Assembly (NCBI RefSeq): GCF_002954765.1
Contig: NZ_MTPW01000001.1
Location: 1,129,501-1,193,500, forward strand
DNA: 64,000 bases
Reading direction: 5' to 3'
DNA from: Nonlabens arenilitoris
Lineage (GTDB): Bacteria > Bacteroidota > Bacteroidia > Flavobacteriales > Flavobacteriaceae
Shown: piece by piece, positions 8,950 through 27,015 of the stretch
How the letters are laid out: each line of letters opens with the position of its first letter
Numbering within the stretch: the first letter of the stretch is position 1
Translations under genes and position numbers: made by a program
The notes under the pieces: generated by a model
The model's input: only the letters and a program-made list of their open reading frames with translations
What the model was told of the DNA's origin: nothing
Database searches by the model: none

Positions 8950-8978
8950 GTTTTAAAAACCAATAACTTATTCAAAAA

Positions 8979-9188: not shown

Positions 9189-9198
9189 AAGGAGCAAT

Positions 9199-9247: not shown

Positions 9248-9265
9248 TCAGGAAAAACATCAACA

Positions 9266-9283
9266 ACGGCGGATTCAGTCCTC
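9266..9283. repeat. Decayed REP-like unit
   Basis: AACGGCGGATTCAGTCCTCT. The left half is identical to the units at 8158 and 13159, but the expected TCCGCC right arm is degraded to TCCTCT. Confidence 0.5.
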
Positions 9284-9312
9284 TATTTGTAAACCATTAA
9301 ACACTAACCATC

Positions 9313-10023: not shown

Positions 10024-10025
10024 GT

Positions 10026-10811
10026 ATGAAAAAGTTATTTAAAAAGAATAAAACAGCAATACTTATCTCGACAATAGGAATCCTTGTTTTACTTAATATT
10101 ATTAGTTACACTAAACTATGGACTAATTTAGAAACATATTTTGATTCTAAGGTATTCAATGAAATAGCAACTCCGATAGCCACTATAATTGCGGTTATCA
10201 TTTATTATGGTGCATTAAAATCAACTCAAAATCAAAATGCAATAACGAAAAGTAATAATGATAAAAATTATTTTGAAGAGATAATAAAAGAATATCAAGA
10301 TAAAGCAAAGTCAACATCAGTAAAATATCATAATGATTATTCAAATAAATCGATAAATTTTACTGAACTAGTGGAAGAAGTTATTATAAACATTGATACA
10401 ATGATTTATAATGAAGACTATCAATCAGACTTAAAGCTATTATCTAATGGTGAGACACTCACTCATTATAATATGAAACTAAGAAGTTATAAAAAAGAGT
10501 ATTCATTTTTAAGTAAAATATTTACTGGTAAAAGTAGAATGTCTTTTTTTATACAAGATATCATTGAATTACTTAAAGACATTGATAGCTCTAATCTTAC
10601 TAAGGATGACAAAAAAATACTTTCAAAAAAAATTATCAGGATATTTATTGGTGATTATACCAAGTTTTTTGACGAAAAATATTCGATATATCCTAATAAT
10701 ACTTTAATCCCGATTCAAACTGTTGGTAAAAATTTGAGAATCGATTTTGTCCCAATTTATGAAACTCCCTTTTTAAAGAATATCAAAGAAATAAAAGAAT
10801 ATCAGAAATAA
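10026..10811 (+). CDS. Unrecognised two-TM protein, AT-rich accessory gene
   Basis: A 261-residue protein with two N-terminal TM helices (about 11-27 and 45-63) and a long Lys/Asn/Ile-rich cytosolic part predicted to be mostly helical. The TM-TM-cytosolic layout (ATPIATIIAVIIYYGALKSTQNQNA) is vaguely like putative phage abortive-infection membrane proteins, but no motif proves it. It starts 2 nt after the YqiJ-like stop, yet its base composition and codon choice are clearly more AT-rich than both neighbours. Dispersed repeat copy B follows immediately. I read it as an insertion into the YqiJ-flotillin pair. The function is unknown. Confidence 0.6.
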   Translation: MKKLFKKNKTAILISTIGILVLLNIISYTKLWTNLETYFDSKVFNEIATPIATIIAVIIYYGALKSTQNQNAITKSNNDKNYFEEIIKEYQDKAKSTSVKYHNDYSNKSINFTELVEEVIINIDTMIYNEDYQSDLKLLSNGETLTHYNMKLRSYKKEYSFLSKIFTGKSRMSFFIQDIIELLKDIDSSNLTKDDKKILSKKIIRIFIGDYTKFFDEKYSIYPNNTLIPIQTVGKNLRIDFVPIYETPFLKNIKEIKEYQK

Positions 10812-10817
10812 TGATAA

Positions 10818-10836
10818 GTCTGAGCTTGTCGAAGAC
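10818..10836. repeat. Dispersed repeat GTCTGAGC copy B
   Basis: GTCTGAGCTTGTCGAAGAC in the 152-bp gap before flotillin. It differs from copy A by one base. Confidence 0.75.
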
Positions 10837-10963
10837 GATATAATAGTCAAGAAAGATTTTACAGTCGCACTTTGATAAGCCTGTGCTAAATTGACCAAAA
10901 TGCTCACTGTAACAAAAACATTAAAATAAAAACAACTAAACAAACAAAAACCAAACAAAAACT

Positions 10964-13036
10964 ATGGACGGAACATTAGGATTATTTGTAATGGGAATAG
11001 GAGTTTTTCTATTTCTAGTAATTGTTTACTTCGCTATCATTGCGATGTTTTACAAAAAAGTACATCAAGGTCAGGCGCTGGTGCGTACTGGTTTTGGAGG
11101 TACCAAAGTCGCCACAGATAAAGGACTTTACGTAGTACCGGTTTTCCACCGTGTGGAGACGATGGATATTTCGGTTAAGAAAATCCAGATTGAGCGTATG
11201 GGTGTAGAAGGATTGATCTGTAAGGACAACATGAGAGCCGATATTAAAGTAGCCTTTTTTGTACGTGTCAACAATGAGGTAGAATACATCAAAAAAGTGG
11301 CGCAAACCATAGGTGTCCAGCGTGCTTCTCGTATCGAGACATTAGAAGATCTTTTTGAAGCAAAGTTCTCTGAGGCATTGAAAACCGTAGGTAAAAAATT
11401 CCAGTTTATCGACTTGTATGAAGCACGTCGTGAGTTCCGTGATGAGATTGTGGATATTATCGGTACTGATTTGAATGGTTACACACTAGAGGATTGTGCG
11501 ATTGACTTCTTGGAGCAAACTAGTGTTTCTCACTTAAAAGCAGATAATATTCTAGATGCAGAAGGTATCAAAAAGATTACTGATCTAACTGCTGCACAGA
11601 ATATTAAAGCCAACTTGATCAAGCGTGATGAGGAGAAAACCATACGCAAGCAAGATGTTGAGGCTCGTGAAGCAATTCTAGAACTAGACAAGCAACTCGC
11701 CGAAAAAGAAGAACAACAAAAACGTGAGATTGCAAACATCAAATCTCGTGAAGAAGCAGAAACTCTTAAAGTAGCCGAAGAAGAACGCCTGAAATCAGAA
11801 ACAGCTCGTATCGCTACTGAAGAAAAAGTAAAAGTTGCCGAAGAAAATATGCAACGTCAGATCATCGTTGCAGAGAAAAACAAGCAACGTACCAATGCTG
11901 TTGAAACAGAACGTGTGGAAAAAGACCGCATGTTAGAACTTACTGAAAGAGAAAGAGTAGTAACTCTAGCTCAAATCGAGAAAGAAAAAGTAGTAGAAGT
12001 AGAGAAAAAGAATATTCAGGACGTGATTAGAGATCGCGTGGTGCTGGAAAAAGGTGTGGTAGAAGAGCAGGAAAACATGAAAGATATTGAAGCTTTCAAA
12101 ACTGCAGACCGTGCTAAGCAAGTAGCCATCACAAATGCTGAGGCAAAAGCACAAGACGAATTGATACGCATCACTAAAGCTGCTGAAGCTTCTAAACAAG
12201 CATCTATTCAAAAAGCTGAAGAGATTAACATCGAGGCTCTTGCTCATAAAGAAGCAAGTGAGAAGGAAGCAGAAGCACGTAAGATTCTTGCTGAAGCACA
12301 AGCTAAAGAAGAAGCAACTGTAGGACTTTCTGAGGCACAAGTAATGCATGCAAAAGCTGAGGCTAGCGAGCGTCAAGGAATTGTAGATGCACTCATCATC
12401 CAGAAAAAGGCAGAGGCTGAAGCAAGCGGTATCGCTGCAAAAGCAGAGGCAAAACGCAAAGACGGACTTGCTGAGGCTGAAGTGATCAAAGAAAAAGCCC
12501 TTGCAGATGCTGCAGGAATTGAAGAGAAAGCTGAGGCGATGAAGAAACTTGATGGTGTAGGTAAAGAACATGAAGAGTTCAAACTACGTCTTGATAAGGA
12601 ACTTCAGGTAGATCTAGCACAAATCAACATCCAGAAAGATATTGCAGATGCGCAAGCACAAGTGATAGGAGATGCATTGAAAGCGGCTAAGATTGACATC
12701 GTTGGTGGTGAGACCATGTTCTTTGAACAAATCATCGGTCAGATCACAAAGGCTAAAGGTTATGACAGACTGGTGAATCACTCTGAAACGGTAACTGAAG
12801 TAAAGGATGCCATTCTAGGAAGTGATGATGTAAAAGGAAATCTGCTGGATAAAGTAAAAGACTTTGCAGACAAGTACAACATCAGCTCTGAGGACATCAA
12901 GAACTTGACTATCGCAAATCTGTTGAGCAATCTACAGAACAAGTCTAACGATGGTGACGAGCAAAACATGTTGAGCAACCTGATGAATTTGGCTAAAGGA
13001 ATGGGATTATCTAACAAGAAGTTAGGGAATATTTAA
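10964..13036 (+). CDS. Flotillin (YqiK-type, SPFH/Band 7)
   Basis: A 690-residue membrane scaffold protein. One N-terminal TM helix (about 8-30) is followed by the SPFH/Band 7 domain (about 30-215: QGQALVRTGFGGTKVATDKGLYVVPVFHRVETMDISVKK, then DNMRADIKVAFFVRV). A very long Glu/Lys/Ala-rich coiled coil spans about 220-560 and includes repeated EA/KAEAEA runs typical of flotillins. The C-terminal segment (about 575-690: IGDALKAAKIDIVGGETMFFEQIIGQ) is the usual flotillin tail. It should form oligomeric microdomains and act with the YqiJ-like protein. A long antisense ORF in the coiled coil is a composition artefact. Confidence 0.92.
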   Translation: MDGTLGLFVMGIGVFLFLVIVYFAIIAMFYKKVHQGQALVRTGFGGTKVATDKGLYVVPVFHRVETMDISVKKIQIERMGVEGLICKDNMRADIKVAFFVRVNNEVEYIKKVAQTIGVQRASRIETLEDLFEAKFSEALKTVGKKFQFIDLYEARREFRDEIVDIIGTDLNGYTLEDCAIDFLEQTSVSHLKADNILDAEGIKKITDLTAAQNIKANLIKRDEEKTIRKQDVEAREAILELDKQLAEKEEQQKREIANIKSREEAETLKVAEEERLKSETARIATEEKVKVAEENMQRQIIVAEKNKQRTNAVETERVEKDRMLELTERERVVTLAQIEKEKVVEVEKKNIQDVIRDRVVLEKGVVEEQENMKDIEAFKTADRAKQVAITNAEAKAQDELIRITKAAEASKQASIQKAEEINIEALAHKEASEKEAEARKILAEAQAKEEATVGLSEAQVMHAKAEASERQGIVDALIIQKKAEAEASGIAAKAEAKRKDGLAEAEVIKEKALADAAGIEEKAEAMKKLDGVGKEHEEFKLRLDKELQVDLAQINIQKDIADAQAQVIGDALKAAKIDIVGGETMFFEQIIGQITKAKGYDRLVNHSETVTEVKDAILGSDDVKGNLLDKVKDFADKYNISSEDIKNLTIANLLSNLQNKSNDGDEQNMLSNLMNLAKGMGLSNKKLGNI

Positions 13037-13055
13037 GAATGCTTATAAGGGCGCT

Positions 13056-13085
13056 ACCTGATTCTTTCTCTAGAAAGAATCAGGT
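13056..13085. repeat. 13-bp-stem hairpin in RAYT upstream region
   Basis: ACCTGATTCTTTC-TCTA-GAAAGAATCAGGT, directly after flotillin. There is no trailing T-run. It is followed by GGGCTATCCGCTATATC and, 40 bp on, GGATGCCGCTACTATCCC, an imperfect inverted arrangement often seen beside transposases in Bacteroidota (recollection, not verified). Confidence 0.6.
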
Positions 13086-13158
13086 CGGGCTATCCGCTAT
13101 ATCTTTTTAGGCTACCGCCGTAAAAAGGATGCCGCTACTATCCCTAGCGCAGGACACA

Positions 13159-13179
13159 ACGGCGGAACGCATTCCGCCC
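13159..13179. repeat. REP-like hairpin upstream of RAYT
   Basis: AACGGCGGAACGCATTCCGCC. GGCGGAA and TTCCGCC pair around the CGCA loop. It is the intact member of the AACGGCGGA set and lies 28 nt before the transposase start. Confidence 0.7.
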
Positions 13180-13206
13180 ACGCTAGCACCAAACACCAAC
13201 TCACTA

Positions 13207-13833
13207 ATGAATCTTCACAACCGGAAATCTCTTAGACTCAAAGGCTACGACTACACATCAGTCGGTAGATACTTTGTGACTATAGTAACTAGAAATAGGT
13301 TGCATTTGTTCGGTAAGGTCGTAGATGGAGAAATGGTTTTAAATGAGTTTGGCAAAATAGCAGAGCGTGAATGGATCAATACGTTGAGGCTAAGGAATAA
13401 TGTTTCATTAGGAGCATTTATGATTATGCCAGATCATATTCATTTGGTCATAAACATTGAAGTGGCGACTCCTCAAACAGAGTATTCTAGTGAAGAGTTA
13501 GAACGTCGTGCTGGAGCGGTCGGAGGTAAAGATATATGTAAAGAAGGATCATTAGGAAGTTTAGTCAGAGGTTACAAAGCTGCGATAACAAATCAGGTCA
13601 AACAACTGATTTACGCATATCAGGAAGGGAAATCTACTATAACAGAAACAGCTTTGAATGAAATAAGACCTTTGATAAGAAGAGTCGATCTAAAGAAAAC
13701 CATCTGGGTACGCAACTACCACGAAATAATCATCAGAGATCAACGAGCCTACCTGAACATAAGCAGGTACATCAATAACAATCCCAAAAAATGGGATGAG
13801 GATCTCAAGAAAAAACTAGGACTACATGAGTGA
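13207..13833 (+). CDS. REP-associated tyrosine transposase (RAYT, IS200-like Y1 family)
   Basis: A 208-residue HUH endonuclease of the domesticated IS200/IS605-like group that processes REP hairpins. The His pair is in IMPDHIHLVI (H77, H79) and the likely catalytic Tyr is Y171 in WVRNYHEIIIRDQRAY, followed by RYINNNPKKW. I start at the ATG at 13207 (MNLHNRKSLRLKGYDYTSVGRYFVTI), because the upstream in-frame codons run through the REP hairpin. Hairpins with a CGCA loop lie on both sides (13159-13179 and 13844-13863). The stop overlaps the start of the AAA+ gene by 8 nt. It interrupts an otherwise conserved-looking flotillin-ATPase pair. A single copy without terminal IS structure argues for a RAYT, not an active IS. 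Confidence 0.88.
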   Translation: MNLHNRKSLRLKGYDYTSVGRYFVTIVTRNRLHLFGKVVDGEMVLNEFGKIAEREWINTLRLRNNVSLGAFMIMPDHIHLVINIEVATPQTEYSSEELERRAGAVGGKDICKEGSLGSLVRGYKAAITNQVKQLIYAYQEGKSTITETALNEIRPLIRRVDLKKTIWVRNYHEIIIRDQRAYLNISRYINNNPKKWDEDLKKKLGLHE

Positions 13834-16800
13834 CACAAACCAAGGGCGCGACGCATCGCGCCCAGACAGCCAATCGTCGCGCCCCATCGTCGAGAACGCT
13901 AAGCGTCTCGACTCAGGAACTTACGAGATCATCCAGAGCCGTTTGCTCAAGCAAAAAAATGACTTGCAGCAACGCCTGAATACTCTTAATGAAGAACGTA
14001 AAAAGGTCTTCGGTTCGCTGGAAACACGACTGATTGCAAACGACCGTGTGAATACAGAAAACAACTGTATCGCCCGTGATATCGTGACCATAGGCAAGTA
14101 CAGCATTTTTGGTTATAACGTACACTTTGGACTGCGCACAGAGATCAAACTGAGTGATGTTTTTAGTGTCTATGAATTTGATCGTGATGGTGTGGATGGT
14201 GATGCGTTACGCTTTCGCGAAAGCGGAACAAAACTTCAAATCATTGAGGATCCTATCTTTCAAACAGATTTTGAAAATCTTTATAAGTACTACCGCAACA
14301 CGATATTTTCCAAGTTTGCCATCATGGGCAATTACTTGCATATGGTGTTTCAGCTGAGTGATTCTGTGACTGATATCAAGACCTTTAAATGGCTGATTAC
14401 TGATAATGGACTGCAATATGTAGATAACCGTAGTGAGCACGAATTTCGTTTTCCGGCTCAGTATGGTTTTCAGTGGAAGGAAGCTGGACGTGATGACCAG
14501 CGCAATGGTGTACATGCTCACGTGTCTATTTTGGACAAAGTTTTTGTAGAAACCATAGGTGGCGATTTAACCATTAAGGTTGAGGATAATACCGACGATG
14601 GTCAAGGAATTTATAGTGAAGACGTAGAATACCGCGATCAGACGCTGGACGATGGTCAGTACCGCTATGCCGATTTAGGCAATCTGATTGTTCTGGAAAT
14701 CAAACCTTTTCAAGAAGAACCTCGCTATTTTGTCTACAACCATAAGATCAAAGAGGTAGAAAAAATAGACAGTATTGCACAGGCTGCAGTGCTATTACCA
14801 GATGAGCAAGGAATTATTTTCCCGAGTGGTTATTACCTGCAAACAGGTGAGTACAATGTGTTCCCGAGCAGTGCTGGAAAATTGAAATTCCAGCAAAAGA
14901 TTGCCTCGCCTAATGGTGAAGATCACTTGTACGTATTTTATAATCCAGCAGAAGGATTGTATGTACTTATGTCCTATAACGTGATTGATCAAGAGGTAAA
15001 AACACCTATCGTGTGTAATGGATTTACGATTCTGGAACAAGGAGAATTGTGTTATTTCCGTACCGAAGATGAGCAGACCAAACATCACATGATGCAAATA
15101 TGGCAAACACCGTATTTAAAAGGCAATATCATACCGTCTGAGCATCAAGATACAATGCTCTATAAAATCGGTAACAAAGACATTGTAAAGGCGATGGCCG
15201 AAGCAAATGAACTGTTGACGCTTCTTAATAAAGAAGATAGTTATGGCGGTTTATATGACGATATCGCACGCGCATCTAAAGATATTCTCGATGCTTATTA
15301 CTGGTTGCCTGAAAAGGAAACCCAACAAATCAATTTGCCATTATTAGAAATTAATAAAGCATCTAACGCTGCGATTGATGAGTTTGAGAAGGTCAAACAA
15401 ATGCGCAAACAAGCAGCAACAGAGACTAAAGAGATCTCTAAAAAAGCCGATGCACTTTTCAGCAAAATAAAAAGTACGTCTTTCAAGTCCATTAATGATT
15501 TTGTAGAGCTTTTGACCCAACTGCGCAGTTTGCGTGGTGAGGCGATAGGCCTTTATGAAATACGTTATGTTGATACAGATTTCATTAAAGGAATTGAGGA
15601 ACAAATCGTTGAGCAAAACGAGGTGATCTCACGTCGTGCGGTTACCTTTTTACTAGATGATAAAGCACTAGCTCCATACCACGATGCTGTTGCTGAAAAG
15701 CAAAAAGCATTAGACGACACTAAGAAAGTCATCGAGATTAAAAATCTAGAAAAAGAGGTGAATCAAATCGCTGAAGATCTGGAGTTATTAATCGACATTG
15801 TTTCTAATCTAGAGATTGAAGACACTTCGCATTCTACTAAGATAATTGAGAATATCTCTTTGATTTTTGCGACTATCAACCAGGTAAAAGCAGCGATTAA
15901 GAACAAAGTAAAAACCGTAGGTAAAAAAGAAGCGCAAGCTGATTTTGCTGCACAGTTAAAGTTGATCGATCAGAGTATCATCAATTACCTAGACATTGCC
16001 AACACTCCAGAAAAGTGTGATGAATTCCTTACTAAAGTTTCTATTCAGCTAGAAGAGCTGGAAGGGAAATTTGCCGATTATGAGGAATACATCACTGAGA
16101 TTATTGAAAAGCGTGAAGAGGTGTATGCCGCTTTTGATAATCGTAAGAGCAGTCTGGTAGAAGCACGCAATAAAAAAGCTATTGCCTTTCAAAACGCTGC
16201 AAATCGCATCATAAAAGGTGTGCAAAAACGTTCACAATCGCTGGATAGCATCACAGAAATCAATGGCTATTTTGCTAGTGATTTAATGATCAATAAAGTG
16301 CGCGATATCGTAGCACAATTAAAAGAACTGGACGACGCTGGTAAGGCAGAAGCTATTGAAACTGCCTTAAAAGTAGCTCGTGAAGATGCATTGAGAAAGC
16401 TCAAGGATAAGAACGAGCTTTATGAAGATGGCGATAATATCATTAAGCTGGGGAAACACAAATTTGGCGTTAATAAACAACAGCTGGATTTGACCATTGT
16501 TTATAAGGAAAACGCTTTATTCTATCACCTAACAGGAACCGATTTCTATCAGGAATTAAAGAACGAGGTGCTCACCCAATCCATGGATATCTGGAATCAG
16601 GATTTGGTTTCAGAAAATGCGCAGGTATATCGATCTGCTTATCTCGCCTACTCCATTTTTAAGAACGGAGATCAGGACTCGTTGAGAACCATGAGTGAGG
16701 CAGATTTGCTGGCTCATGTGCAGGAAATCGCTAGTGGTAACTATTCTGGTGGTTACGTAAAAGGTGTTCATGATCACGATGCGGCTCAAATTCTAAGCGT

Positions 16801-18862
16801 TTTATTACATAAAGATCACGATTTAGGACTGCTGACTTACGCTCCAAATATCCGAGCGCAAGCGCAATTTTTTTGGAATGGTCTAGACAAGAAGAAACGC
16901 GATAACCTCAATCGTACCTTAAAAAGTGCTGGCGAGGTGCTGTCTGTTTTTCCAGATAGTAAAGAGTATGATTTCATTATTGAGGAACTGGCTGATGCCA
17001 TATATCAGCAGAATGTCACGCTGAGCACCTCGTCACGCTCGGCACAAGCTCTGTCGAAGCGCGATATTAATAGCTCTGAGGCTGTTTCAAGCACCGACTT
17101 CGACAAGCTCAGTCTGACAGACGGAAACGAGCATCTCGTAGCTAGTTATTTATTTAATGAACTAAAAGATAACGATCACTTTACGGTAAGCCATAGCGCC
17201 ATTCAATTAAAGGAAGCTTTTGAAAAGAAAATCAAAGCTCAAAATGCCGATTTGAAATTCAAGAAAAGTCTGGAAGCCTGTGATAACGAAAAAGATAAAA
17301 TTGAGCTGGTGAGGCATTGGGTTTCCGCTTTCGCGAAAGCGCACTCAAAACAAGCTTTATTGCGCTACATAGACGAATGCGTAGCAAATATCCTTTATGG
17401 AGAACTGACTGCTGATAAAACCGTTGCTGTATCGCCAGAAGAAATCATTGAAAACTTAAAAGGAGCACATGCCACGATAGAAGAAGGAACATTCCAGTTT
17501 AATTATCATGATTTTACAGCAACACTGGAGCATTTTATGACCATAAAAGTGCCTGCCTATGAAGCTTTTAGAAAAGCAAAACATGAAGTAACAGAAGATC
17601 TAAAAGAAGCCTTGCGACTGGAAGAATTCAAACCACGCGTGTTGAGCTCATTTGTGCGTAATAAATTGATTGACCAAGTATATTTCCCATTAATTGGAGA
17701 CAATCTTGCGAAACAGTTAGGAACCGTAGGTGATACTAAACGTACCGACCGCATGGGATTATTGCTGTTGATCTCGCCACCAGGTTACGGTAAAACGACC
17801 TTAATGGAGTACATGGCAAATCGACTGGGATTGATTTTTATGAAAATTAATGGGCCAGCAATAGGTCATGATATCACATCAGTAGATCCAGAAGCAGCAA
17901 CCAATACAGCTACAAGAGAAGAATTGAAAAAGCTGAATCTTGCCTTTGAAATGGGTGACAACGTGATGTTGTATCTAGATGACATACAACACTGTAATCC
18001 AGAGTTTTTACAAAAATTCATTAGTCTGTCTGATGGAACACGTAAGATTGAAGGTGTTTTTAATGGCAAGCCCAAAACTTATGACCTGCGCAGTAAGAAA
18101 TTTTGCGTGATCATGGCTGGTAATCCATATACTGAAAGCGGAGATAAATTCCAGATTCCAGATATGCTTGCAAACCGTGCCGATATTTATAACCTAGGTG
18201 ACATCATAGGTGATACAGCGCATTTATTTGAATTAAGTCTCGTTGAAAATGCACTGACTAGTAATCCTGTATTGCAACAGTTAAGTAACAAGCATTTTGA
18301 TGATGTTTATGCACTGATTGACCGAGTTCAAAATGGAGCGAGCGATAACGAGCTGAAAGGAAATCATAGCAATCAAGAAATAGCAGATTATGTAGCCGTA
18401 CTTGAAAAAGTGTTGAAAATAAGAGATACGGTTCTCAAAGTCAATGAAACTTATATCGCCAGCGCAGGAATGGAAGATACGTATCGCACAGAGCCTAGTT
18501 TTAAACTACAAGGCTCTTACCGAGATATGAATAAACTAGTCGCAAAGGTTGTCCCTATAATGGATAATAAGGAATTACAAACCTTACTATTATCACATTA
18601 TGAAAGTGAATCACAAACCTTAACCAGTGCCGCTGAAGCCAATCTTTTGAAATATAAAGAACTGGTCAACACCATCACGCCTGAAGAGCAACAACGCTGG
18701 GAAGATATCAAAGGGATTTTTGCCAAAAACAATAAACTCAACGGCCTAGGCGGACAGAATCAAATGTCTCAAGTTTTGAGCCAGATGATGGATTTTACAG
18801 AGAATCTTGAGGGAATTAAAGAGGTTTTGAGGAAGGGATTAAGTAATAATAATACAAACTAA
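13826..18862 (+). CDS. Giant coiled-coil AAA+ ATPase (DUF3686-like, annotated as DNA repair ATPase in relatives)
   Basis: A 1678-residue protein. The N-terminus (1-40) is encoded over REP-like hairpins and looks non-conserved, followed by a short coiled coil (about 45-65). A large beta-rich region follows (about 85-450), then long coiled coils (about 480-870). A helical region leads to the AAA+ module with Walker A SPPGYGKTT (K1323) and Walker B MLYLDDIQH (D1385, D1386). SKKFCVIMAGNPYTESG is a sensor-1-like block. Palindromes at 14210 and 17326 are read as LRFRESG and SAFAKAHS. A Ser-rich linker (about 1070-1100) contains dispersed repeat copy C. Position after PspA and flotillin suggests a membrane-stress remodeller; the DNA-repair label is unproven. 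Confidence 0.82.
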   Translation: MSDTNQGRDASRPDSQSSRPIVENAKRLDSGTYEIIQSRLLKQKNDLQQRLNTLNEERKKVFGSLETRLIANDRVNTENNCIARDIVTIGKYSIFGYNVHFGLRTEIKLSDVFSVYEFDRDGVDGDALRFRESGTKLQIIEDPIFQTDFENLYKYYRNTIFSKFAIMGNYLHMVFQLSDSVTDIKTFKWLITDNGLQYVDNRSEHEFRFPAQYGFQWKEAGRDDQRNGVHAHVSILDKVFVETIGGDLTIKVEDNTDDGQGIYSEDVEYRDQTLDDGQYRYADLGNLIVLEIKPFQEEPRYFVYNHKIKEVEKIDSIAQAAVLLPDEQGIIFPSGYYLQTGEYNVFPSSAGKLKFQQKIASPNGEDHLYVFYNPAEGLYVLMSYNVIDQEVKTPIVCNGFTILEQGELCYFRTEDEQTKHHMMQIWQTPYLKGNIIPSEHQDTMLYKIGNKDIVKAMAEANELLTLLNKEDSYGGLYDDIARASKDILDAYYWLPEKETQQINLPLLEINKASNAAIDEFEKVKQMRKQAATETKEISKKADALFSKIKSTSFKSINDFVELLTQLRSLRGEAIGLYEIRYVDTDFIKGIEEQIVEQNEVISRRAVTFLLDDKALAPYHDAVAEKQKALDDTKKVIEIKNLEKEVNQIAEDLELLIDIVSNLEIEDTSHSTKIIENISLIFATINQVKAAIKNKVKTVGKKEAQADFAAQLKLIDQSIINYLDIANTPEKCDEFLTKVSIQLEELEGKFADYEEYITEIIEKREEVYAAFDNRKSSLVEARNKKAIAFQNAANRIIKGVQKRSQSLDSITEINGYFASDLMINKVRDIVAQLKELDDAGKAEAIETALKVAREDALRKLKDKNELYEDGDNIIKLGKHKFGVNKQQLDLTIVYKENALFYHLTGTDFYQELKNEVLTQSMDIWNQDLVSENAQVYRSAYLAYSIFKNGDQDSLRTMSEADLLAHVQEIASGNYSGGYVKGVHDHDAAQILSVLLHKDHDLGLLTYAPNIRAQAQFFWNGLDKKKRDNLNRTLKSAGEVLSVFPDSKEYDFIIEELADAIYQQNVTLSTSSRSAQALSKRDINSSEAVSSTDFDKLSLTDGNEHLVASYLFNELKDNDHFTVSHSAIQLKEAFEKKIKAQNADLKFKKSLEACDNEKDKIELVRHWVSAFAKAHSKQALLRYIDECVANILYGELTADKTVAVSPEEIIENLKGAHATIEEGTFQFNYHDFTATLEHFMTIKVPAYEAFRKAKHEVTEDLKEALRLEEFKPRVLSSFVRNKLIDQVYFPLIGDNLAKQLGTVGDTKRTDRMGLLLLISPPGYGKTTLMEYMANRLGLIFMKINGPAIGHDITSVDPEAATNTATREELKKLNLAFEMGDNVMLYLDDIQHCNPEFLQKFISLSDGTRKIEGVFNGKPKTYDLRSKKFCVIMAGNPYTESGDKFQIPDMLANRADIYNLGDIIGDTAHLFELSLVENALTSNPVLQQLSNKHFDDVYALIDRVQNGASDNELKGNHSNQEIADYVAVLEKVLKIRDTVLKVNETYIASAGMEDTYRTEPSFKLQGSYRDMNKLVAKVVPIMDNKELQTLLLSHYESESQTLTSAAEANLLKYKELVNTITPEEQQRWEDIKGIFAKNNKLNGLGGQNQMSQVLSQMMDFTENLEGIKEVLRKGLSNNNTN
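13844..13863. repeat. REP-like hairpin downstream of RAYT, inside AAA+ 5' coding region
   Basis: GGGCGCGACGCATCGCGCCC, a perfect 8-bp stem with loop CGCA, the same loop as the upstream REP-like hairpin. It is translated as part of the ATPase N-terminus (GRDASRP). A second hairpin, 13889-13912 (GTCGAG/CTCGAC outer stem, ACGCT/AGCGT inner stem), follows. Confidence 0.65.
14210..14225. repeat. Dispersed palindrome copy 4 (in AAA+ gene)
   Basis: Exact 16-mer, preceded by TA, read as LRFRESG. Confidence 0.95.
17029..17117. repeat. Repeat-derived linker with dispersed repeat copy C
   Basis: Reverse-orientation GACTTCGACAAGCTCAGTC (17096-17114) matches the GTCTGAGCTTGTCGAAGAC family with minor change. 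A weaker copy with GGCACAAGCTCTGTCGAAGC lies at 17041-17060. Both are in frame in the ATPase and encode a Ser-rich linker ending TDFDKLSLTD. Confidence 0.65.
17326..17341. repeat. Dispersed palindrome copy 5 (in AAA+ gene)
   Basis: Exact 16-mer, read in a different frame as AFAKA. Confidence 0.95.
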
Positions 18863-19060: not shown

Positions 19061-20005
19061 ATGTTATTAAAAGTGTCTGCTTTATTAATTGTGATGTTAA
19101 CTAGTCTAGTTCACGCCACTGACAAACCTTTATTGCTGCTGGAAAATGCAAATCAAGAGGTAAGTGCTTACCAAGACGCTACATTACAATTAAGCTTACA
19201 AGAACAAATATACTCAAACAAGCGATGGCGAAGTTTAATCAAAAACAAACGATTGTCTGTAAGTCTAGTTGATTTATCAAACGATGGTGTTCGATATGCT
19301 AGTATTAATGGTGATAATATGATGTATGCTGCTAGCATGCCTAAAATTGCTGTTTTATATACTGCTATGGATGCTATTGAGAAAGGTGATTTAGAATATA
19401 CTGATGAAGTAAAGACGGATATGTGGTTAATGATTTCTAAGTCCAATAATGCTGCTTCTACTAGAATGATTGATAGAGTAGGTTTTCAACGTATCGAAGA
19501 CGTGATGTGCGATCCAGCAAATCCATTTTATGATCAATACAGTAATGGTGGTCTTTGGGTAGGTAAAAGATATGCCGCACAGGGAAGACGCCATCCAGAA
19601 CCTATCAAAGGTTTAAGTCATGCTGCTACAACTGAAGCTGTTGCTAAATTATACTACCAATTAGCCACTGGCCAATTAATTAACAATGAACGCAGTAGCG
19701 AAATGCTACAATATCTAAAAGACCCGAGTTTACATCATAAGTTTGTAAATACCTTAGATCAAATTGCACCTGAAGCAGATGTTTATAGAAAAAGTGGATC
19801 TTGGAAAAACTGGCATTGCGATAGTGTTATTGTATGGGATGATGAACGCAAGAAGCATTATATTCTTGTCGCTATGGTAGAGTCGCCTGATGGAGAAAAA
19901 ATTATTAGAAATTTAGTACGACCTGCTGAAGCCGCATTAAACAAAACACCTATCTTGCTTCAAGACATCCAATCAGGTGAAACCATTAAACCAGCTCATA
20001 TCTAA
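19061..20005 (+). CDS. Exported serine hydrolase, class A beta-lactamase fold (SH1)
   Basis: A 314-residue protein with an N-terminal signal peptide (MLLKVSALLIVMLTSLVHA). All three catalytic blocks of the beta-lactamase/DD-peptidase fold are present: S92-M-P-K95, S128-N-N130, and K244-S-G before a DSVIVW strand. Length and spacing fit class A-like enzymes, but an Omega-loop E-x-x-L-N motif is not obvious, so beta-lactam hydrolysis is not implied. It overlaps the next gene by 29 nt, so the two are co-transcribed. The 198-bp gap upstream holds no strong promoter match I can defend. A second such hydrolase lies across the convergent junction. The periplasmic substrate is unknown. Confidence 0.85.
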   Translation: MLLKVSALLIVMLTSLVHATDKPLLLLENANQEVSAYQDATLQLSLQEQIYSNKRWRSLIKNKRLSVSLVDLSNDGVRYASINGDNMMYAASMPKIAVLYTAMDAIEKGDLEYTDEVKTDMWLMISKSNNAASTRMIDRVGFQRIEDVMCDPANPFYDQYSNGGLWVGKRYAAQGRRHPEPIKGLSHAATTEAVAKLYYQLATGQLINNERSSEMLQYLKDPSLHHKFVNTLDQIAPEADVYRKSGSWKNWHCDSVIVWDDERKKHYILVAMVESPDGEKIIRNLVRPAEAALNKTPILLQDIQSGETIKPAHI

Positions 20006-22781
20006 TTTATTTGATATAAAGAAAAAGGAACTCTCCATAGCCTTATGGATGCAGTTGTATCTTTTTCTAATCATAGGTGCATTACTAGTAGTTAAACCTA
20101 CTATCAATGCACTTTTTTTATCGACAGCTGGAGCCGACTCCTTATCTATAGCTTTTATTTTAACGGCTATCATTGCCGTCATCATCTCATTTTCTTATCA
20201 CAAGTTGCTCGAGCGATTCAACCTTAGATACATTATAAGATCTACGTTGTGGTTTTTCTCTGCATCATTTTTTGTCATAGGACTTCTGGTTATGTTTGAA
20301 GTTTCTAATCTATTCTTAGCTTATGCATTCTACTTATTTGTAGGTATATATGCATTACTAGTCACTTCTCAATTTTGGGTTTTAGCAAACGTGATTTTTA
20401 ATATTAGAGAAGCTAAAAGATTATTTGGTTTTATTGGAGCTGGTGGAATTGCTGGTGGAATTGCCGGAGGCTATATAACCTCTATTCTAGTACCTTTTAC
20501 AGGTAATGCCGCTTTAATTATTATAGCAAGTTTAATGATTGCTTGTTGCCCTTATATCTATCAAAAGATTAAGTCTCATAGTTATAAAGGTAAAATGAAA
20601 TTGGAGTTCAAAAAAAGAGAAACAGTTTCTAAGGAGCCTTCTATTCAATTAATTTTCAACTCGAGGCATTTATCACATCTCGCAGGTGTCATAGGAATAG
20701 GTGTGCTAGTAGCAAAGCTTGTAGATTATGAGTTCAGTTATCTGGCCAGTCAGCAAATAGAAGATCCTATGGAGCTTGCATCCTTTTTTGGATTTTGGTT
20801 CAGTACATTTAATATCGTTTCATTGATATTGCAATTATTAATCACAAAGCGTTTATTAGAAAACTTTAATATTGAAACCAACCTATTTTTCTTGCCAGCA
20901 GCGGTAATTGCCTGCGCACTATTACTTTTTGTAATGCCAGAATTATGGATTGTAATTCTTTTAAAAGGCTTTGATGGTAGTCTAAAGCAATCTTTACATA
21001 AAAGTGCTCTGGAGTTACTAGCTATACCTATACCTAGTGATATAAAGAATAAAACTAAAACCTTTATAGATGTAGTGGTGGACAGCATTGCTACTGGACT
21101 AGCAGGATTAGTTATCATTTTTGTTGTAAAAGGACTCCATTTATCTAATTATATTATAACAGCATCTATTATTGTTCTTTCCATTATATGGATCTATTTA
21201 ATCTTTAAAGTAAAGGATAGCTACTTAAGCATCTTTAAACAAAGTATCGTTAAAAGAGAAAAATTAAGAAAAGAGAAAAATAATGTAGGTACTCTTATCA
21301 GTAATATGAAAATCATATTTGAAACTGGTGGTACTGAGGATATTCTAGTGATGTTGAATAAACTACAGGAAATTAGTCATACCAGCTTAAAAGAGCCTGT
21401 ATTACAACTGCTTAATCACAAAAACAAGAAAGTCGTTACAGCGGTAATTAATAACTTAGATTATGTTATCCATGAACCTGTAGCACAGGTACAAGATTTT
21501 ATATATACAGATGATAGCGAATTGATTAATGCAGCCATGAATTATCTATTAAGCCATGAACATATTGCCTATCAGTTTTATGAAAATTATCTAGATGATG
21601 AAGATGATAGAATCGCAACAGCCGCACTACTTGCCCTAGCTGCCATTTCTCAAGAAAATCCTTTACTAGCTGAAAAGTATAACCTAAAGTTACGTATAGA
21701 ACTATTTTCTAGTGATATAGGTGACAATAATATGCAAATATCAGAACTTGCCCGTCTTATTGAAACACTGGGATATGCCTCTACAACAAACTACTATTCT
21801 ATAATTGATAATTACTTAGGTCATAACAATAAGGCCTTAAAAATTGCAGCCATTAAAGCTACTGGTCACACCAAAGATGTTTATTTCTTAAACACTCTTC
21901 TTTATGCCTTAATGGATGATGATTTAAGAAAATCAATTGAATCATCCATTTATAAAATGGGTAACAAATCTTTAAAAGTTATAAGCCAGATTTATACTAA
22001 AAAGAAAACCGAGAATGATTTAAGAAAAAAGTTACTCTATGTGCTATATCACATCAGAACTAAAAAATCACATCGTTTACTTATTCAACTAGCACATCAT
22101 AGTGATATATCTGTTAAAAAAACATCTTTTGAACTATTATTTAAATCTAGAAAAAACGGTAAAAAATCTATTCTGAAAAAGAAAGAGTTAATAAAGTTAA
22201 TAGACAAAGAATCTGCTAAGTATAAAGAACTAGTAAGAATTTATTGGTCATTGAAAATAAGTCAACGATCTGATAAAAGAACTAATGGTGTCATCTCTTT
22301 AGTTGAAAAAAATATAATAGAACAATTGGTTTTGAAAGTTGATCAATGCATCTCTGATCAATTGGAAATCATATTTAATTTATTATCTCAACGATACAAT
22401 CCAGAAGATGTCTATGTTGCTTATAAAGGAATGACAAGCAAAGAGACCGTTTCTAGACTACATTCTATGGAGTACCTCAATGGTATATTGAGTAGAGACT
22501 TAAAAAACATGCTATTTCCCCTATTTGAGCTAGAGTCTCACACTTTATCTAGTGAAACTTTTGAATTTCAGGAAAGAATAAAACTATATGATCGCAGTAA
22601 GATGTTAGAAAAGCTTCTTCTTATTCAAGAACAAAAGGTACATTCTATAAGTATTAAGTTCCTTCATTTACAAGGTGAGCATCTAATAAACGGTATATTA
22701 TCACAACTGCCAACACCTCAAGCTCTAGAGATTAAAAAGACATTACTCTCATTAGAGAATAGTCAATCCAAAATTGCATAG
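19977..22781 (+). CDS. Nucleotide-transporter-like (NTT/Tlc) membrane protein fused to HEAT repeats
   Basis: A 934-residue fusion. Residues 1-420 form about 11-12 TM helices, beginning LFDIKKKELSIALWMQLYLFLIIGALLVVKPTINAL. The signature SQFWVLAN...EAKRLFGFIGAGG (about 130-155) resembles the ADP/ATP translocase (NTT) family. Residues 450-920 are helical repeats (LQLLNHKNKKVVTAVINNLDYV; AAIKATGHTKDVYFLNTLLYALMDDD), consistent with HEAT repeats; HEAT-fused NTT relatives are known in free-living bacteria. A GTG start at 19977 is chosen because the conserved N-terminal block precedes the first ATG. Its stop directly abuts the stop of the convergent hydrolase gene. The substrate is not established, and an MFS transporter of other specificity is the alternative. 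Confidence 0.7.
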   Translation: MKPLNQLISNLFDIKKKELSIALWMQLYLFLIIGALLVVKPTINALFLSTAGADSLSIAFILTAIIAVIISFSYHKLLERFNLRYIIRSTLWFFSASFFVIGLLVMFEVSNLFLAYAFYLFVGIYALLVTSQFWVLANVIFNIREAKRLFGFIGAGGIAGGIAGGYITSILVPFTGNAALIIIASLMIACCPYIYQKIKSHSYKGKMKLEFKKRETVSKEPSIQLIFNSRHLSHLAGVIGIGVLVAKLVDYEFSYLASQQIEDPMELASFFGFWFSTFNIVSLILQLLITKRLLENFNIETNLFFLPAAVIACALLLFVMPELWIVILLKGFDGSLKQSLHKSALELLAIPIPSDIKNKTKTFIDVVVDSIATGLAGLVIIFVVKGLHLSNYIITASIIVLSIIWIYLIFKVKDSYLSIFKQSIVKREKLRKEKNNVGTLISNMKIIFETGGTEDILVMLNKLQEISHTSLKEPVLQLLNHKNKKVVTAVINNLDYVIHEPVAQVQDFIYTDDSELINAAMNYLLSHEHIAYQFYENYLDDEDDRIATAALLALAAISQENPLLAEKYNLKLRIELFSSDIGDNNMQISELARLIETLGYASTTNYYSIIDNYLGHNNKALKIAAIKATGHTKDVYFLNTLLYALMDDDLRKSIESSIYKMGNKSLKVISQIYTKKKTENDLRKKLLYVLYHIRTKKSHRLLIQLAHHSDISVKKTSFELLFKSRKNGKKSILKKKELIKLIDKESAKYKELVRIYWSLKISQRSDKRTNGVISLVEKNIIEQLVLKVDQCISDQLEIIFNLLSQRYNPEDVYVAYKGMTSKETVSRLHSMEYLNGILSRDLKNMLFPLFELESHTLSSETFEFQERIKLYDRSKMLEKLLLIQEQKVHSISIKFLHLQGEHLINGILSQLPTPQALEIKKTLLSLENSQSKIA

Positions 22782-24080
22782 TTAATTATTATCTGCATTT
22801 TCAGTGGTGACCTCTTGAGAGTCATTAGTACCAATATTAATAGATCTAATCGTTTTATCGATTGCACTCGCTAAATACATATGATCGCCAGCAGAGTTTT
22901 TACTAAGTATATTACTCATTAAACAAACTACATAATTAGTACCATCTTCATGTTCAACAGTAATGATACTGTTCATATAATTGTACCGGTTCCCCATGTA
23001 CTTACCGCATGGTGTTGACTTAGATTTATCACAGCTATATAAACTACCCGATTTAAAATATACGGCAGCATTATCTAATTGTGGACTATAAGCATATCGT
23101 ATTCTTCTATCGGTCATATAGAGTAGTTTTTTAATCTCTAGGCTACTCATTTCATCAATGACGCAACCTTGTTCTAATTGCACCATAAACTTCATGAGAC
23201 CTTTAGGCGTACCTATACTACCACCTTTACTACCTACATATTGATCAGGACCATTAGTAAAAAAACTACCTAATCGCCACTCATCATGCGTTATACCTAA
23301 ATTTCTTAAAGGTTGATTCACTAAATTAATCGCTATATCTGTAAGTTCAGATTTATCTGCCTTATCAAAATAGGCATCTGCCTCTTCTTGAGTTAAAGTA
23401 AAATATGCATCTCCAAAAACGTGCATTAATAAAGCCTCACGCCAGACGATACTAGCGGCACCATTATTACTAACACTTAACATATGATCTAACCACTCAT
23501 AAAGACTAAACTGATCATTAAATACCACAGTACGCTTAATCAGTTTATCTTTTTCAAGATCTACCACTGGTATGGTATGGTGATCATACAGACCCCAATT
23601 ACCCGATTGTACTATTTTATTTTTCATTAACCGTTGCCTCACAGACCAGTCCTCTGGACACAGATTACGCAATTCATTAAAAAAAGCCGTTGCTACAGCA
23701 ATTTTACCTACACTACCAGGTTGAAAACCAGAATTCTCATTGAGTTGCGCATATTTGGGGTTATTGATATTAGTAATATCCATAACGGCAATACCGTAAC
23801 CTGAACTATTTGGGAAAAGTCTGCGCATTTTTGCTTGAAACTCCTTATCCACCACCATTAAAGAATCTACTGGTTTTGTGTCCTCGCAAAGCCATAAATT
23901 CACCTCATCACTTTTTTTAAAAGAGCCAGGTTTTAAATACCGTTCTACTAGAGTACTATCTATGGTCTTCTCTAATCGTTTAAGACGTTTAATACCAGTG
24001 GATTGATAACCATCTATAGGATATAACATCACCAAGATTAATACTACAGACACTGATATACTATATCTAAAAATATTCAT
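22782..24080 (-). CDS. Exported serine hydrolase, beta-lactamase fold (SH2)
   Basis: A 432-residue protein with an N-terminal hydrophobic segment (about 7-22) acting as signal or anchor. Active-site motifs are S123-V-G-K126, S204-N-N206 and K343-S-G-S, so the fold matches SH1 but with a longer N-terminal part (30-95) and insertions around 150-190. Cys residues near 349-356 (CDKSKSTPCG) could form a disulfide. It begins on the last bases of the dikinase-like gene (TAATG overlap), which implies coupling. Pairing of such a hydrolase with each of the two convergent operons suggests a shared periplasmic job. Antibiotic resistance is possible but not supported by the sequence. Confidence 0.82.
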   Translation of the reverse strand: MNIFRYSISVSVVLILVMLYPIDGYQSTGIKRLKRLEKTIDSTLVERYLKPGSFKKSDEVNLWLCEDTKPVDSLMVVDKEFQAKMRRLFPNSSGYGIAVMDITNINNPKYAQLNENSGFQPGSVGKIAVATAFFNELRNLCPEDWSVRQRLMKNKIVQSGNWGLYDHHTIPVVDLEKDKLIKRTVVFNDQFSLYEWLDHMLSVSNNGAASIVWREALLMHVFGDAYFTLTQEEADAYFDKADKSELTDIAINLVNQPLRNLGITHDEWRLGSFFTNGPDQYVGSKGGSIGTPKGLMKFMVQLEQGCVIDEMSSLEIKKLLYMTDRRIRYAYSPQLDNAAVYFKSGSLYSCDKSKSTPCGKYMGNRYNYMNSIITVEHEDGTNYVVCLMSNILSKNSAGDHMYLASAIDKTIRSINIGTNDSQEVTTENADNN

Positions 24081-26992
24081 TACAATGCTATTTGTTTATT
24101 AATAAGTAACTCAGTATTATAATCTGTTTTCCCATCCATTTTCAATAAATAAGAGTTAGTAATAGCGTTACTGTTTTCTACAAAAGGACGTATTTGAAAT
24201 AGGTATAATTTATTATCCTTAAAGCCTAACTCAATATCCCATGCACCGTCATAAGAACCATCTTTAGAACTAGGCATGGTTTGATGTGCGCTTTTAGCAA
24301 ACTCCTGTATTTCTTTAAGATTATCCTTACTAATAATAGGATGATTAAAATTGACAAATTCCATTCTCGAACCACCTTCAGCCGGTAATTTGCGTTGCAT
24401 ACGTTCTCTAGCCGGTGCTACTAGTTGACTATTGCCTTGACTATCGACTATAAAAGTTTCTGCACTTTGCCCATCTACTGCTCCACCAGCACCACGGCTC
24501 ATTGCGATTGTGATACCGTCGTTATTTTGATGAACAAAATCTTTTGTAATTAATACACCACTATAATCTACATCTACCGTTGGGATGATTAAAATAGATG
24601 GATATACATTTTCTGGGTTTTCAAGATATGCCTGGCGCCATTTAAAACTACGGTCTGTATAAGGACTAGCCCATACATCTCTTATCCCTTTCATTATCTT
24701 TTCTTCGCTCACGACATTAAAAACGGTCAGGTTTAAACCAGCACCGGTAAACTCTTCAAGATCTTCCATATTAGTATCACTCCTTAAAAAAACTGGAACT
24801 TTACCCATATCGTTCCCTAGAATTCCTTTAAAATCCTTTTTTAACTCTTTTACAAATTCTGATCTAATAGGCATCCTAGATATGGCTTCTCTTAAAATAG
24901 CGAGTTGTTCTAATTGATATTTTTCTACATCTGCTGTAGAGGATCCACTATCTTTTAATTGTCTCGCTTTCGCGAAAGCGGACTCTAAAAAGTCCCAGTA
25001 ACTACCATCTGTTTCGGGCATATTTTGAGACATGTGATTTCTAAAAACTCCAAAAGGAATTATAATCCCATTTACAACATGGTCAGGAAACAATTGTTTT
25101 AATTGACCAAGGTTTGCAGCTTTAGGACCACATAAAACACCACTGTCTTCACTATTAACACTGGCCATATCTATAGGTGCAACGATATCTAATTTCAGTT
25201 TTTCTTCAGAGATGCGTATGGTTTTCTTCTCTTTTTGTTGATTTTTATTGAATAATAATTGCTCTTCTTCATTCATCTCATTAGCTGGTTTTATAACCAC
25301 AGCACCGCGATCACTTACGGCATAGAATACTTGTTTACCATTATAATCCTTAAGGTCTGAAAGATTATTTGCACTGATGGCACTATTAGGAATTCCTAAG
25401 TTGCGAGCTAGTAATTGTACATGAGAAACTAGATTACCTTCTGACACTGTAGCAATACCTGCAACTGGTTTTAAATCGCTAGGTGGATGATCAAATACAT
25501 ATATTTTTTTAGGGTCTACCGCCATCCCTTCGGCATTACCTGTAACAACTACTAACTCTCCTTGAGTATATCCAGGATTAAGACCTCTTACAGTACTAGT
25601 ATTACTTAATACTGGAATATATGTTGAGCTACCTAACTGTCTTGAAAGTAAACCAGAAAACTCACCTATTGAAGAACCTAGTGGTAATAATAATGAACTG
25701 CGTATACGGTCATCATAAAACCCATATGATAAAGGTTCAAAACCGGTATACTCTTCTACAACGTCTCCATAAATGCTGTTTACCATACCGGTTCCCCAAG
25801 CTACCTGATTGCGAGCTACATTTATAAAATCCATTAATTGGTTTGCTTTCACTGTTGCATCAGTACTCATTAATAACTGATTCTCAACGGCATCCCATTC
25901 CCATTTTTCTACATAGCCCGAGCTAGCTAATGCCTCACTGAGCGCATGTACTTTATCCATATGTTCTCTTATCGTAGCAGGAATCCACTGTGATGACTTC
26001 TGAAATATCAACTCTTCTAGTCGTAAGCTAAGTTCTAACGCACTAGTACGTCTAGTACCTCTTCTATCTTCTTGAATATTGTAGCGTATATCACACATCA
26101 GTCCTGATGCTGCTGGTATTATTATGGAAGGATCTGTTTCTTGAGCATAGGTCTTAGAGAACCAATCTGTTTGCGTTTTTATGTAACTGTCATTATCCCA
26201 ATCAGAAACCATTTGAGCTAGATCACTAATACTTACCGGTTCAAAAAACTCTTTCATATCTGTTATGAGTTTTTGAAAGTCAGCCAGCGTTTGATCGTTT
26301 AAATTAGACTTGTTAGCATCATACCACTCTTGAACTTGATGAATATCTTTTGACTCTGGATTGCCATGAATTTTAATCCTAATATCCATAAACTTAGGAT
26401 ACCTATCTGCTATCACTTTACTAGTGCTTCTTATTTCTTGAGCAAGATTAGTATCTCCGTCATGTGGGATATCTCTAAGGCTTTCTCTAATTAAAAAAAA
26501 GTCTTGATCTAAAATCTGGTTACTAGAAAGTATGGTGTAATAAAACTTACGTCCCCATTCTTCCTCGTCCTCTATTTGCTTTGCGCCGCGATAATATTTT
26601 GATTTTTCTTGAATCCATCCATTATCCACACTTTCTAGATATCGTTGTAATTGATATTGCTTTACTCTACTATGGTTAAATGGAGCATCCCAAAAATCCC
26701 AAACATCATTAGAGGCTAATATTTCCCCTAGATAAATGTGTCTGCTTTTTGATAGATTTACAACATCTGATTTATAGCTAGCGTGTTGAATTCCTCCACC
26801 TATTGCGTCTGGACATGGATCTTTTGCGTCTCTTATAGATCCATCTTCACAAAACCAATTGATTTCTTTATAAGGGCCACGATCTAGGTTTTTATAATTC
26901 TCAATAAGGTTATTAATCTTCACGTCGTCATATTGTTGACTCCATGAAAATACAGGCAATAATAGGATTAAGTAAAAGTGTTTAAATAACAT
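24080..26992 (-). CDS. Exported PEP-synthase/dikinase-like protein (His swivel then ATP-grasp)
   Basis: A 970-residue protein starting MLFKHFYLILLLPVFSWSQQ, a clear signal peptide. A TTG 18 nt upstream falls in the -7 box and is rejected as a start. Residues about 25-440 are unassigned and helix-rich. A phosphohistidine swivel domain follows (about 465-575: GNLVSHVQLLARNLGIPNS, H524). The C-terminal ATP-grasp is of PPDK/PpsA type (about 620-960): GPKAANLGQLKQL (K624), FLRSDTNMEDLEEFTGAGLN (R737), and the final DIELGFKDNKLYLFQIRPF (R935). No PEP/pyruvate TIM barrel is present. The swivel-before-ATP-grasp order is that of glucan water dikinases, not PEP synthase. Palindrome copy 6 is read as SAFAKAR. 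An ATP-dependent enzyme outside the cytoplasm is odd. Confidence 0.8.
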   Translation of the reverse strand: MLFKHFYLILLLPVFSWSQQYDDVKINNLIENYKNLDRGPYKEINWFCEDGSIRDAKDPCPDAIGGGIQHASYKSDVVNLSKSRHIYLGEILASNDVWDFWDAPFNHSRVKQYQLQRYLESVDNGWIQEKSKYYRGAKQIEDEEEWGRKFYYTILSSNQILDQDFFLIRESLRDIPHDGDTNLAQEIRSTSKVIADRYPKFMDIRIKIHGNPESKDIHQVQEWYDANKSNLNDQTLADFQKLITDMKEFFEPVSISDLAQMVSDWDNDSYIKTQTDWFSKTYAQETDPSIIIPAASGLMCDIRYNIQEDRRGTRRTSALELSLRLEELIFQKSSQWIPATIREHMDKVHALSEALASSGYVEKWEWDAVENQLLMSTDATVKANQLMDFINVARNQVAWGTGMVNSIYGDVVEEYTGFEPLSYGFYDDRIRSSLLLPLGSSIGEFSGLLSRQLGSSTYIPVLSNTSTVRGLNPGYTQGELVVVTGNAEGMAVDPKKIYVFDHPPSDLKPVAGIATVSEGNLVSHVQLLARNLGIPNSAISANNLSDLKDYNGKQVFYAVSDRGAVVIKPANEMNEEEQLLFNKNQQKEKKTIRISEEKLKLDIVAPIDMASVNSEDSGVLCGPKAANLGQLKQLFPDHVVNGIIIPFGVFRNHMSQNMPETDGSYWDFLESAFAKARQLKDSGSSTADVEKYQLEQLAILREAISRMPIRSEFVKELKKDFKGILGNDMGKVPVFLRSDTNMEDLEEFTGAGLNLTVFNVVSEEKIMKGIRDVWASPYTDRSFKWRQAYLENPENVYPSILIIPTVDVDYSGVLITKDFVHQNNDGITIAMSRGAGGAVDGQSAETFIVDSQGNSQLVAPARERMQRKLPAEGGSRMEFVNFNHPIISKDNLKEIQEFAKSAHQTMPSSKDGSYDGAWDIELGFKDNKLYLFQIRPFVENSNAITNSYLLKMDGKTDYNTELLINKQIAL
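24965..24980. repeat. Dispersed palindrome copy 6 (in dikinase-like gene)
   Basis: Exact 16-mer, read as AFAKA on the coding strand. Confidence 0.95.
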
Positions 26993-27007
26993 ATAGCTGG
27001 TTTTACT

Positions 27008-27015
27008 CAAAGGTA
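27008..27015 (-). promoter_or_regulatory. -7 box for dikinase-like operon
   Basis: TACCTTTG on the minus strand matches TAnnTTTG and ends 15 nt before the ATG at 26992. The -33 region is weak. Confidence 0.5.

Follow-up and report, generated by a model that had tools for sequence, protein, structure and literature searches.

A conserved four-gene module of Flavobacteriaceae that unites a dikinase-like protein, an NTT-HEAT carrier and two serine hydrolases

Genes at the locus

The stretch of DNA considered here, referred to as the window, comprises 64,000 nucleotides from Nonlabens arenilitoris (Bacteroidota, Flavobacteriaceae; contig NZ_MTPW01000001.1, positions 1,129,501 to 1,193,500), the genome of which is about 3.3 Mb in size. 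Four genes within it form two convergent operons. On the forward strand, a serine hydrolase (SH1) is followed by a membrane protein in which an NTT-like domain is fused to HEAT repeats (the carrier); on the reverse strand, a dikinase-like protein (DIK) is followed by a second serine hydrolase (SH2). On the strength of the co-occurrence counts given below, the four very probably constitute a conserved cell-envelope module, of which we found no earlier description. Their coordinates and principal features are summarized in Table 1.

The start of the carrier gene overlaps the end of SH1 by 29 bases, and there is a one-base overlap between DIK and SH2. Because the TAG of the forward operon ends at 22781 and the stop codon of the reverse operon occupies 22782-22784, the two operons abut with zero gap. 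An earlier note on this DNA, made from the sequence alone, had described two convergent, internally overlapping operons without a gap, and the open reading frame (ORF) coordinates (stops 22781/22782) agree. None of the four proteins scores above the cut-off of any NCBIfam model, and the PADLOC models of anti-phage defence returned 0 families for each of them (E up to 0.01). Among the top matches listed in literature searches aimed at the gene set or its parts there is no account of the set, most subscription papers and all bioRxiv preprints being outside the coverage.

Table 1. Features of the four-gene locus, in positions of the window
Feature	Position	Strand	Basis	Description
SH1	19061..20005	+	ORF scan	SxxK serine hydrolase, predicted exported, class A/PBP fold; S92xxK95, S128NN130, K244SG246
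NTT-HEAT carrier	19977..22781	+	ORF scan	GTG start
Carrier, NTT-like membrane domain	19977..21251	+		About 12 transmembrane helices; both ends predicted cytoplasmic
Carrier, C-terminal HEAT-repeat domain	21285..22781	+		Predicted cytoplasmic
SH2	22782..24080	-	ORF scan	SxxK serine hydrolase, predicted exported, PF13354; S123VGK126, S204NN206, K343SG345; Cys350/Cys358
DIK	24080..26992 from ATG, or 24080..27010 from TTG	-	ORF scan	PPDK/PEPS-like dikinase, 970 aa (24080..26992), predicted exported; signal-like sequence at about residues 1-20
DIK residues 20-460	25613..26935	-		Mostly helical; many invariant polar residues; Cys48/Cys60; presumed acceptor-binding domain
DIK residues 465-572	25277..25600	-		Phosphohistidine swivel domain, His524
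DIK residues 602-942	24167..25189	-		ATP-grasp domain: Lys624, Arg737, Thr756, Glu921, Gln933, Arg935

Co-occurrence and gene order

The distribution of the genes was followed in a sample of 249 Flavobacteriaceae genomes from 235 genera, with cut-offs of 1e-60 for DIK, 1e-30 for the carrier and 1e-40 for SH2. Each of these three genes is found in 48 of the 249 genomes, belonging to 45 of the 235 genera, and the three sets are identical. SH1 (1e-40) was found in 30 of the 159 family genomes searched, 29 of them within the DIK set. It stands alone in G205 (contig C123, locus L234; G, C and L numbers denote genomes, contigs and loci), a 90% complete draft in which the gene ends 146 bases before the contig end. 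G007, which has DIK, is not among the 30 and may lie outside the 159; a separate scan of relatives finds its SH1. The chance that two random sets of 48 in 249 would agree is about 10^-52, the true weight being smaller owing to relatedness. The gene for a DUF3686 protein, an upstream neighbour that served as a control, is not linked to the module: it is present in 21 of the 249 genomes, of which 6 are shared with DIK compared with 4.0 expected. The starts of DIK and the carrier lie at most 15 kb apart in 44 of the 48 genomes; amongst the other four, the assemblies of G175 and G253 are broken there, and the genes lie apart in G167 and G203.

Amongst 59 relatives, all four proteins match the same 20 genomes: of the 23 that belong to the genus, 18 are positive, and the remaining two come from elsewhere in the family. 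Left out of the DIK count are ten genomes in which the matches are short and weak, most of them falling on dikinase-like frames of larger size. All four genes are missing from three near-complete congeners (G006, G009 and G010). They are missing too from G013 and G021, the assemblies of which are 77-78% complete. In G001, G017, G019, G020 and other relatives, some copies of the module genes carry internal stops or have split frames, which reflects either decay or sequence error.

Gene order was compared in named genomes, taking the best 80 of 362 DIK relatives with one genome per species; this sample leans to close relatives because only the top-scoring of the 362 were kept. SH2 adjoins DIK in all 80 loci (within about 1.6 kb), and the convergent four-gene layout is present in 65. 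The other 15 comprise 12 loci with DIK and SH2 only, two without SH1 and one without the carrier inside the locus. The genome contains the carrier in every one of these 15 cases (in at least two, L136 and L144, it sits at the locus edge, some 7-8 kb away from SH2), and SH1 adjoins the carrier in 14 of them, staying beside SH2 in the fifteenth. No member of the four is lost in any of the best 80 genomes. In the exceptions the missing genes lie at a greater distance, so the DIK-SH2 half can separate from the carrier-SH1 half. The next commonest family after these four is present in 13 of the 80 loci (1281 ORFs; some loci are shortened by contig ends).

In 296 genomes of the phylum, DIK was found in 11 (1e-40) and the carrier profile in 22 (1e-20), these 11 included. 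Six of the 11 belong to five other families, and three of these (G520, G366 and G364, the last over two contigs) have all four genes. Co-occurrence, which the earlier note had proposed as a check, therefore extends beyond the lineage, across genera of the family as well as outside it. None of the three outcomes that the note had named as refuting its reading was observed: besides this co-occurrence, DIK has a conserved signal-like N-terminus and a pair of cysteines, which would fit export, and the membrane domain of the carrier ranks with NTT structures above other MFS folds. The matches listed for the G478 protein include DIK relatives named from drafts of Rhodothermales, Calditrichaceae, SAR324 and Gemmatimonadota.

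The dikinase-like protein and the hydrolases

PPDK_N is matched by residues 627-949 of DIK in Pfam (E 9e-26), and at E up to 1 DIK matches nothing there besides PPDK_N and PEP-utilizers. For the His swivel the PF00391 match is below threshold (E 0.078); it is backed by a PEPS profile alignment and by the structure model. Together with the signal-like N-terminus, these results are in keeping with the signal sequence, phospho-His swivel and ATP-grasp domain that had been read from the sequence earlier. The catalytic residues are kept in 99-100 of 100 alignment rows, and a pair of cysteines is kept too. The N-terminal domain fits a substrate site, because invariant polar residues are densely placed in it. 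The congener G010, which lacks the module, has at C1:899960-900025 a run of 22 residues that is 64% identical to DIK residues 47-68. This match (E 2.5e-4), part of an open frame of 74 aa, is possibly the remnant of a lost copy.

Both hydrolases match PF13354 (E 3.1e-21 for SH1 and 1.2e-6 for SH2), and the SxxK, SxN and KSG motifs recorded in the earlier note are present and conserved in both families. SH1 has in addition a conserved GGLWVGK block, and in its alignment the segment from SxN to KSG contains no Glu that is invariant or nearly so, of the kind expected for a Glu166-type deacylation residue. It scores 15.7 bits against the NCBIfam class A beta-lactamase model, the cut-off of which is 200. 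The nearest solved chain is Tll2115 (E 3.6e-4), a weak match in which no single stretch is significant; we take Tll2115 to be the cyanobacterial PBP-A, a DD-peptidase. PMC11189452 may be compared on this point. SH2 has no match among solved-structure (PDB) sequences. Its Cys350 and Cys358 are both present in 84 of 100 rows, and one is never found alone. Mature SH2 appears to begin at a conserved YPIDGY, directly after the hydrophobic stretch. The sequence YPIDGYxxTGIxRL at this presumed mature N-terminus hardly varies among relatives and is a candidate for contact with DIK.

The NTT-HEAT carrier

The carrier matches PF03219 (TLC) in Pfam with E 1.8e-11 and 44 bits (cut-off 21), plus HEAT_2, and a search of PDB sequences with it gave no matches other than NTTs up to E 0.1 (3.4e-12 and 2.9e-9). 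When the modelled membrane domain is ranked by fold, NTT structures stand above other MFS folds, so that by sequence and by fold it is an NTT, as had been proposed. The structure model has about 12 helices and the HEAT domain, with a predicted template modelling score of 0.50 and a membrane domain that is partly below 50 in the predicted local distance difference test; the positive loops place the HEAT domain, by prediction, on the cytoplasmic side. The NTT-like signature QFW...EAKR, also pointed out earlier, is present and is conserved across the close family.

Between the two largest carrier clusters (64 four-gene loci), mean identity is 0.43 for the carrier compared with 0.65 for DIK, 0.72 for SH2 and 0.67 for SH1; between two groups in Arenibacter (8 and 2 loci), it is 0.44 for the carrier compared with 0.72-0.76 for the other three genes. 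It seems, judging from these identities, that a diverged NTT-HEAT protein took the place of another at the same position; a carrier of this kind would accordingly seem to be required there.

Elsewhere in the window, a membrane-stress-like locus on the forward strand (8193-18862) encodes PspA/IM30 (PF04012), an unassigned membrane protein and a Band_7/SPFH protein; it also holds a Y1_Tnp-like ORF (13129-13833) and a 1678-aa DUF3686 AAA protein. Positions 5402-6601 of the same strand encode a Laminin_G_3 protein with a match to a secretion sorting tail that is below the cut-off.

Proposed function and its alternatives

Our preferred reading, to which we would assign a probability of roughly 0.4, is that DIK carries out phosphotransfer outside the cytoplasm, that the hydrolases act on the same substrate and that the carrier exchanges nucleotide. 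The export of DIK itself, its reaction and acceptor, and the cargo and direction of the carrier are all matters that we infer from the features described above. By the dikinase mechanism, exported DIK would take the beta-phosphate of ATP (or of another nucleoside triphosphate) onto His524; this phosphate would then swing to an acceptor held in the N-terminal domain, with release of AMP and Pi. SH1 and SH2, as exported acyl-enzymes of the PBP/class A fold, would act on that same acceptor, either processing it or attaching it; peptidoglycan or some other polymer of the envelope is the likeliest candidate. Through the carrier, whose HEAT domain would lie on the inner side, the module would be linked to the cytoplasm. 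The simplest role of the carrier would be nucleotide exchange, with ATP passing out and AMP/ADP or a phosphorylated product passing in, and the HEAT domain might act as a gate; nucleotide export is put forward here as a hypothesis. The more specific proposition that free-living bacteria of the phylum drive covalent chemistry outside the cytoplasm with ATP or another NTP is, in our view, doubtful. Under it, periplasmic nucleotide would come from an NTT-HEAT exchanger, an exported phosphohistidine dikinase would transfer phosphate to an envelope polymer, and that polymer would also be the substrate of two PBP-like acyl-enzymes. Should DIK be active in the compartment to which its N-terminus points, high-energy phosphotransfer would take place where ATP is usually taken to be absent.

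Several observations weigh against this phosphotransfer reading. The periplasm is not generally expected to contain free ATP. The N-terminal domain of DIK, the presumed site of the acceptor, has zero Pfam matches. A hydropathy test is passed by 78 of 79 DIK proteins, yet of 510 other ORFs in these loci 225 pass it too, which makes a hydrophobic N-terminus by itself a weak indicator of export. Further points concern the carrier. In AtNTT1, nucleotide binding or exchange is lost to varying degrees in mutants of K155, E245 and K527, according to the available part of PMC3306366. The corresponding columns of the carrier family are uncharged, being mostly L/I/F, A/G/S and T, with T at the K527 column in 86 of 86 rows; a single numbering offset fits all three residues, the K155 column falling in a weak alignment stretch (-1.0 bits). 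Other NTT-HEAT proteins amongst 15 NTT sequences compared also lack the key residues of AtNTT1, one having Arg at the E245 position, whereas a stand-alone NTT of G493 has Asp at the E245 position and Lys at the K527 position. Because the three positions are uncharged, a nucleotide feed by the carrier is unsupported at the residue level. This is the main result against both the earlier note, in which the carrier was the source of nucleotide, and the mechanism that we ourselves prefer.

The loci beyond the family tell in the same direction. In G493 and G478, DIK is grouped with SH2 and SH1, and a carrier of the window type is absent from beside them; what the carrier profile matches in these genomes is located elsewhere and belongs to other types. 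G474 has DIK and the carrier in separate stretches, and no SH gene was found in the two stretches examined. In 11 of the 22 positive genomes of the phylum sample, the carrier profile is matched without DIK. The four-gene unit of the earlier interpretation, and the identity of the carrier as an NTT by sequence and fold, stand; the nucleotide feed falls short at the level of residues, and the cell-wall or glycan substrate proposed in the note stays putative. From the loci beyond the family, DIK may together with both hydrolases represent the more ancient core, a dedicated carrier being typical but not universal. Four of the genomes with a carrier match and no DIK (G383, G447, G543 and G579) share the genus of G520. 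In G543, the NTT-HEAT gene is adjoined by genes for an Omp85 barrel and a metallophosphoesterase (Pfam), with an unassigned protein of about 560 aa; judged by their first residues, ORFs in G383, G447 and G579 look partly or wholly like those of G543. At the level of loci, L224-L228 show this NTT-HEAT context without DIK, in which L227 has the Omp85-like barrel, the protein of about 560 aa and the metallophosphoesterase, with similar-looking ORFs in the others. G493 (L221) has a comparable NTT-HEAT protein on a different contig from DIK.

The substituted nucleotide residues, combined with an MFS/NTT fold, could be accommodated if the hydrolases free a fragment from the envelope or the surroundings, to which DIK adds phosphate outside the cell, and if the charged product is then taken up by the carrier, perhaps against nucleotide; the carrier would in that case be an importer and not a fuel line. 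That SH1 stays by the carrier in 14 of the 15 genomes where the latter is away from DIK-SH2 would suit such a scheme, and NTT relatives with other cargo are known, an S-adenosylmethionine carrier being amongst the references in the accessible part of PMC5381601. However, DIK would still require nucleotide outside the cytoplasm, and no catabolic gene family recurs near the 80 loci; we consider capture and import rather unlikely. The similarity of SH1 to Tll2115, weak as it is, would accord with SH1 and SH2 being DD-peptidases that edit peptidoglycan, and DIK might then be a phosphohistidine sensor or regulator using nucleotides met outside, rather than a bulk modifier. The dense invariant polar residues in the N-terminal domain of DIK, which resemble those of a substrate site, and the failure of SH2 to match any solved-structure sequence make this improbable.

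An island for the inactivation of antibiotics or other metabolites, in which DIK acts like a rifampin phosphotransferase (RPH) and the hydrolases like beta-lactamases, is very improbable, given that the domain order of DIK is unlike that of RPH, that SH1 lacks a conserved Glu166-like residue and that plasmid records give no DIK match at 1e-20. Least credible of all is that the genes are neighbours merely by chance or lineage, with no common function. The opposite orientation of the two operons would be compatible with this, and vertical inheritance could explain many copies, the counts being uncorrected by a species tree. It is nevertheless hard to reconcile with identical presence sets across so many genera, with the joint absence from the near-complete congeners, with the retention of all four genes where the halves lie apart, or with the unlinked DUF3686 control.

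Comparison with known systems

The hydrolases have the SxxK, SxN and KSG motifs of the PBP-A/class A beta-lactamase fold; they differ from class A beta-lactamases in that the similarity is weak, SH1 lacks the beta-lactamase Glu and SH2 is without a PDB sequence match. DIK has in common with PPDK and PEP synthase the ATP-grasp domain and the phosphohistidine swivel with their conserved catalytic residues. However, in those enzymes the ATP-grasp domain comes first and a C-terminal PEP/pyruvate domain is present, whereas in DIK the swivel comes first, no such domain is matched and the N-terminus is signal-like. The order agrees with that of glucan water dikinase, in which a swivel is followed by a C-terminal ATP-binding domain and ATP is converted to AMP with a glycan as acceptor; DIK likewise has its His swivel before the C-terminal ATP domain, but it has no carbohydrate-binding Pfam match, looks exported and is bacterial. 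In RPH, the order is ATP-grasp, drug domain and C-terminal His, according to the available part of PMC4844700; in DIK, the ATP-grasp domain comes last and the protein looks exported. DIK scores 52.6 bits against NF041857, the NCBIfam model of rifampin phosphotransferase, which has a cut-off of 999.

The carrier shares the profile and the fold of the NTT family, although not the key residues of AtNTT1. Its order, an NTT domain followed by C-terminal HEAT repeats, is that of the NTT-HEAT fusions described by Major et al. in their 2017 survey (PMC5381601), in the accessible part of which these proteins are widespread, occur in free-living bacteria too and are left without a function. The neighbour named in that part of the survey is cNBD, and not a dikinase or hydrolases, whereas in the present module the partners are fixed. 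One branch of the NTT-HEAT proteins having fixed partners, their role becomes directly testable; if the reading of periplasmic nucleoside triphosphate chemistry is true, NTT-HEAT proteins more generally would serve envelope enzymes.

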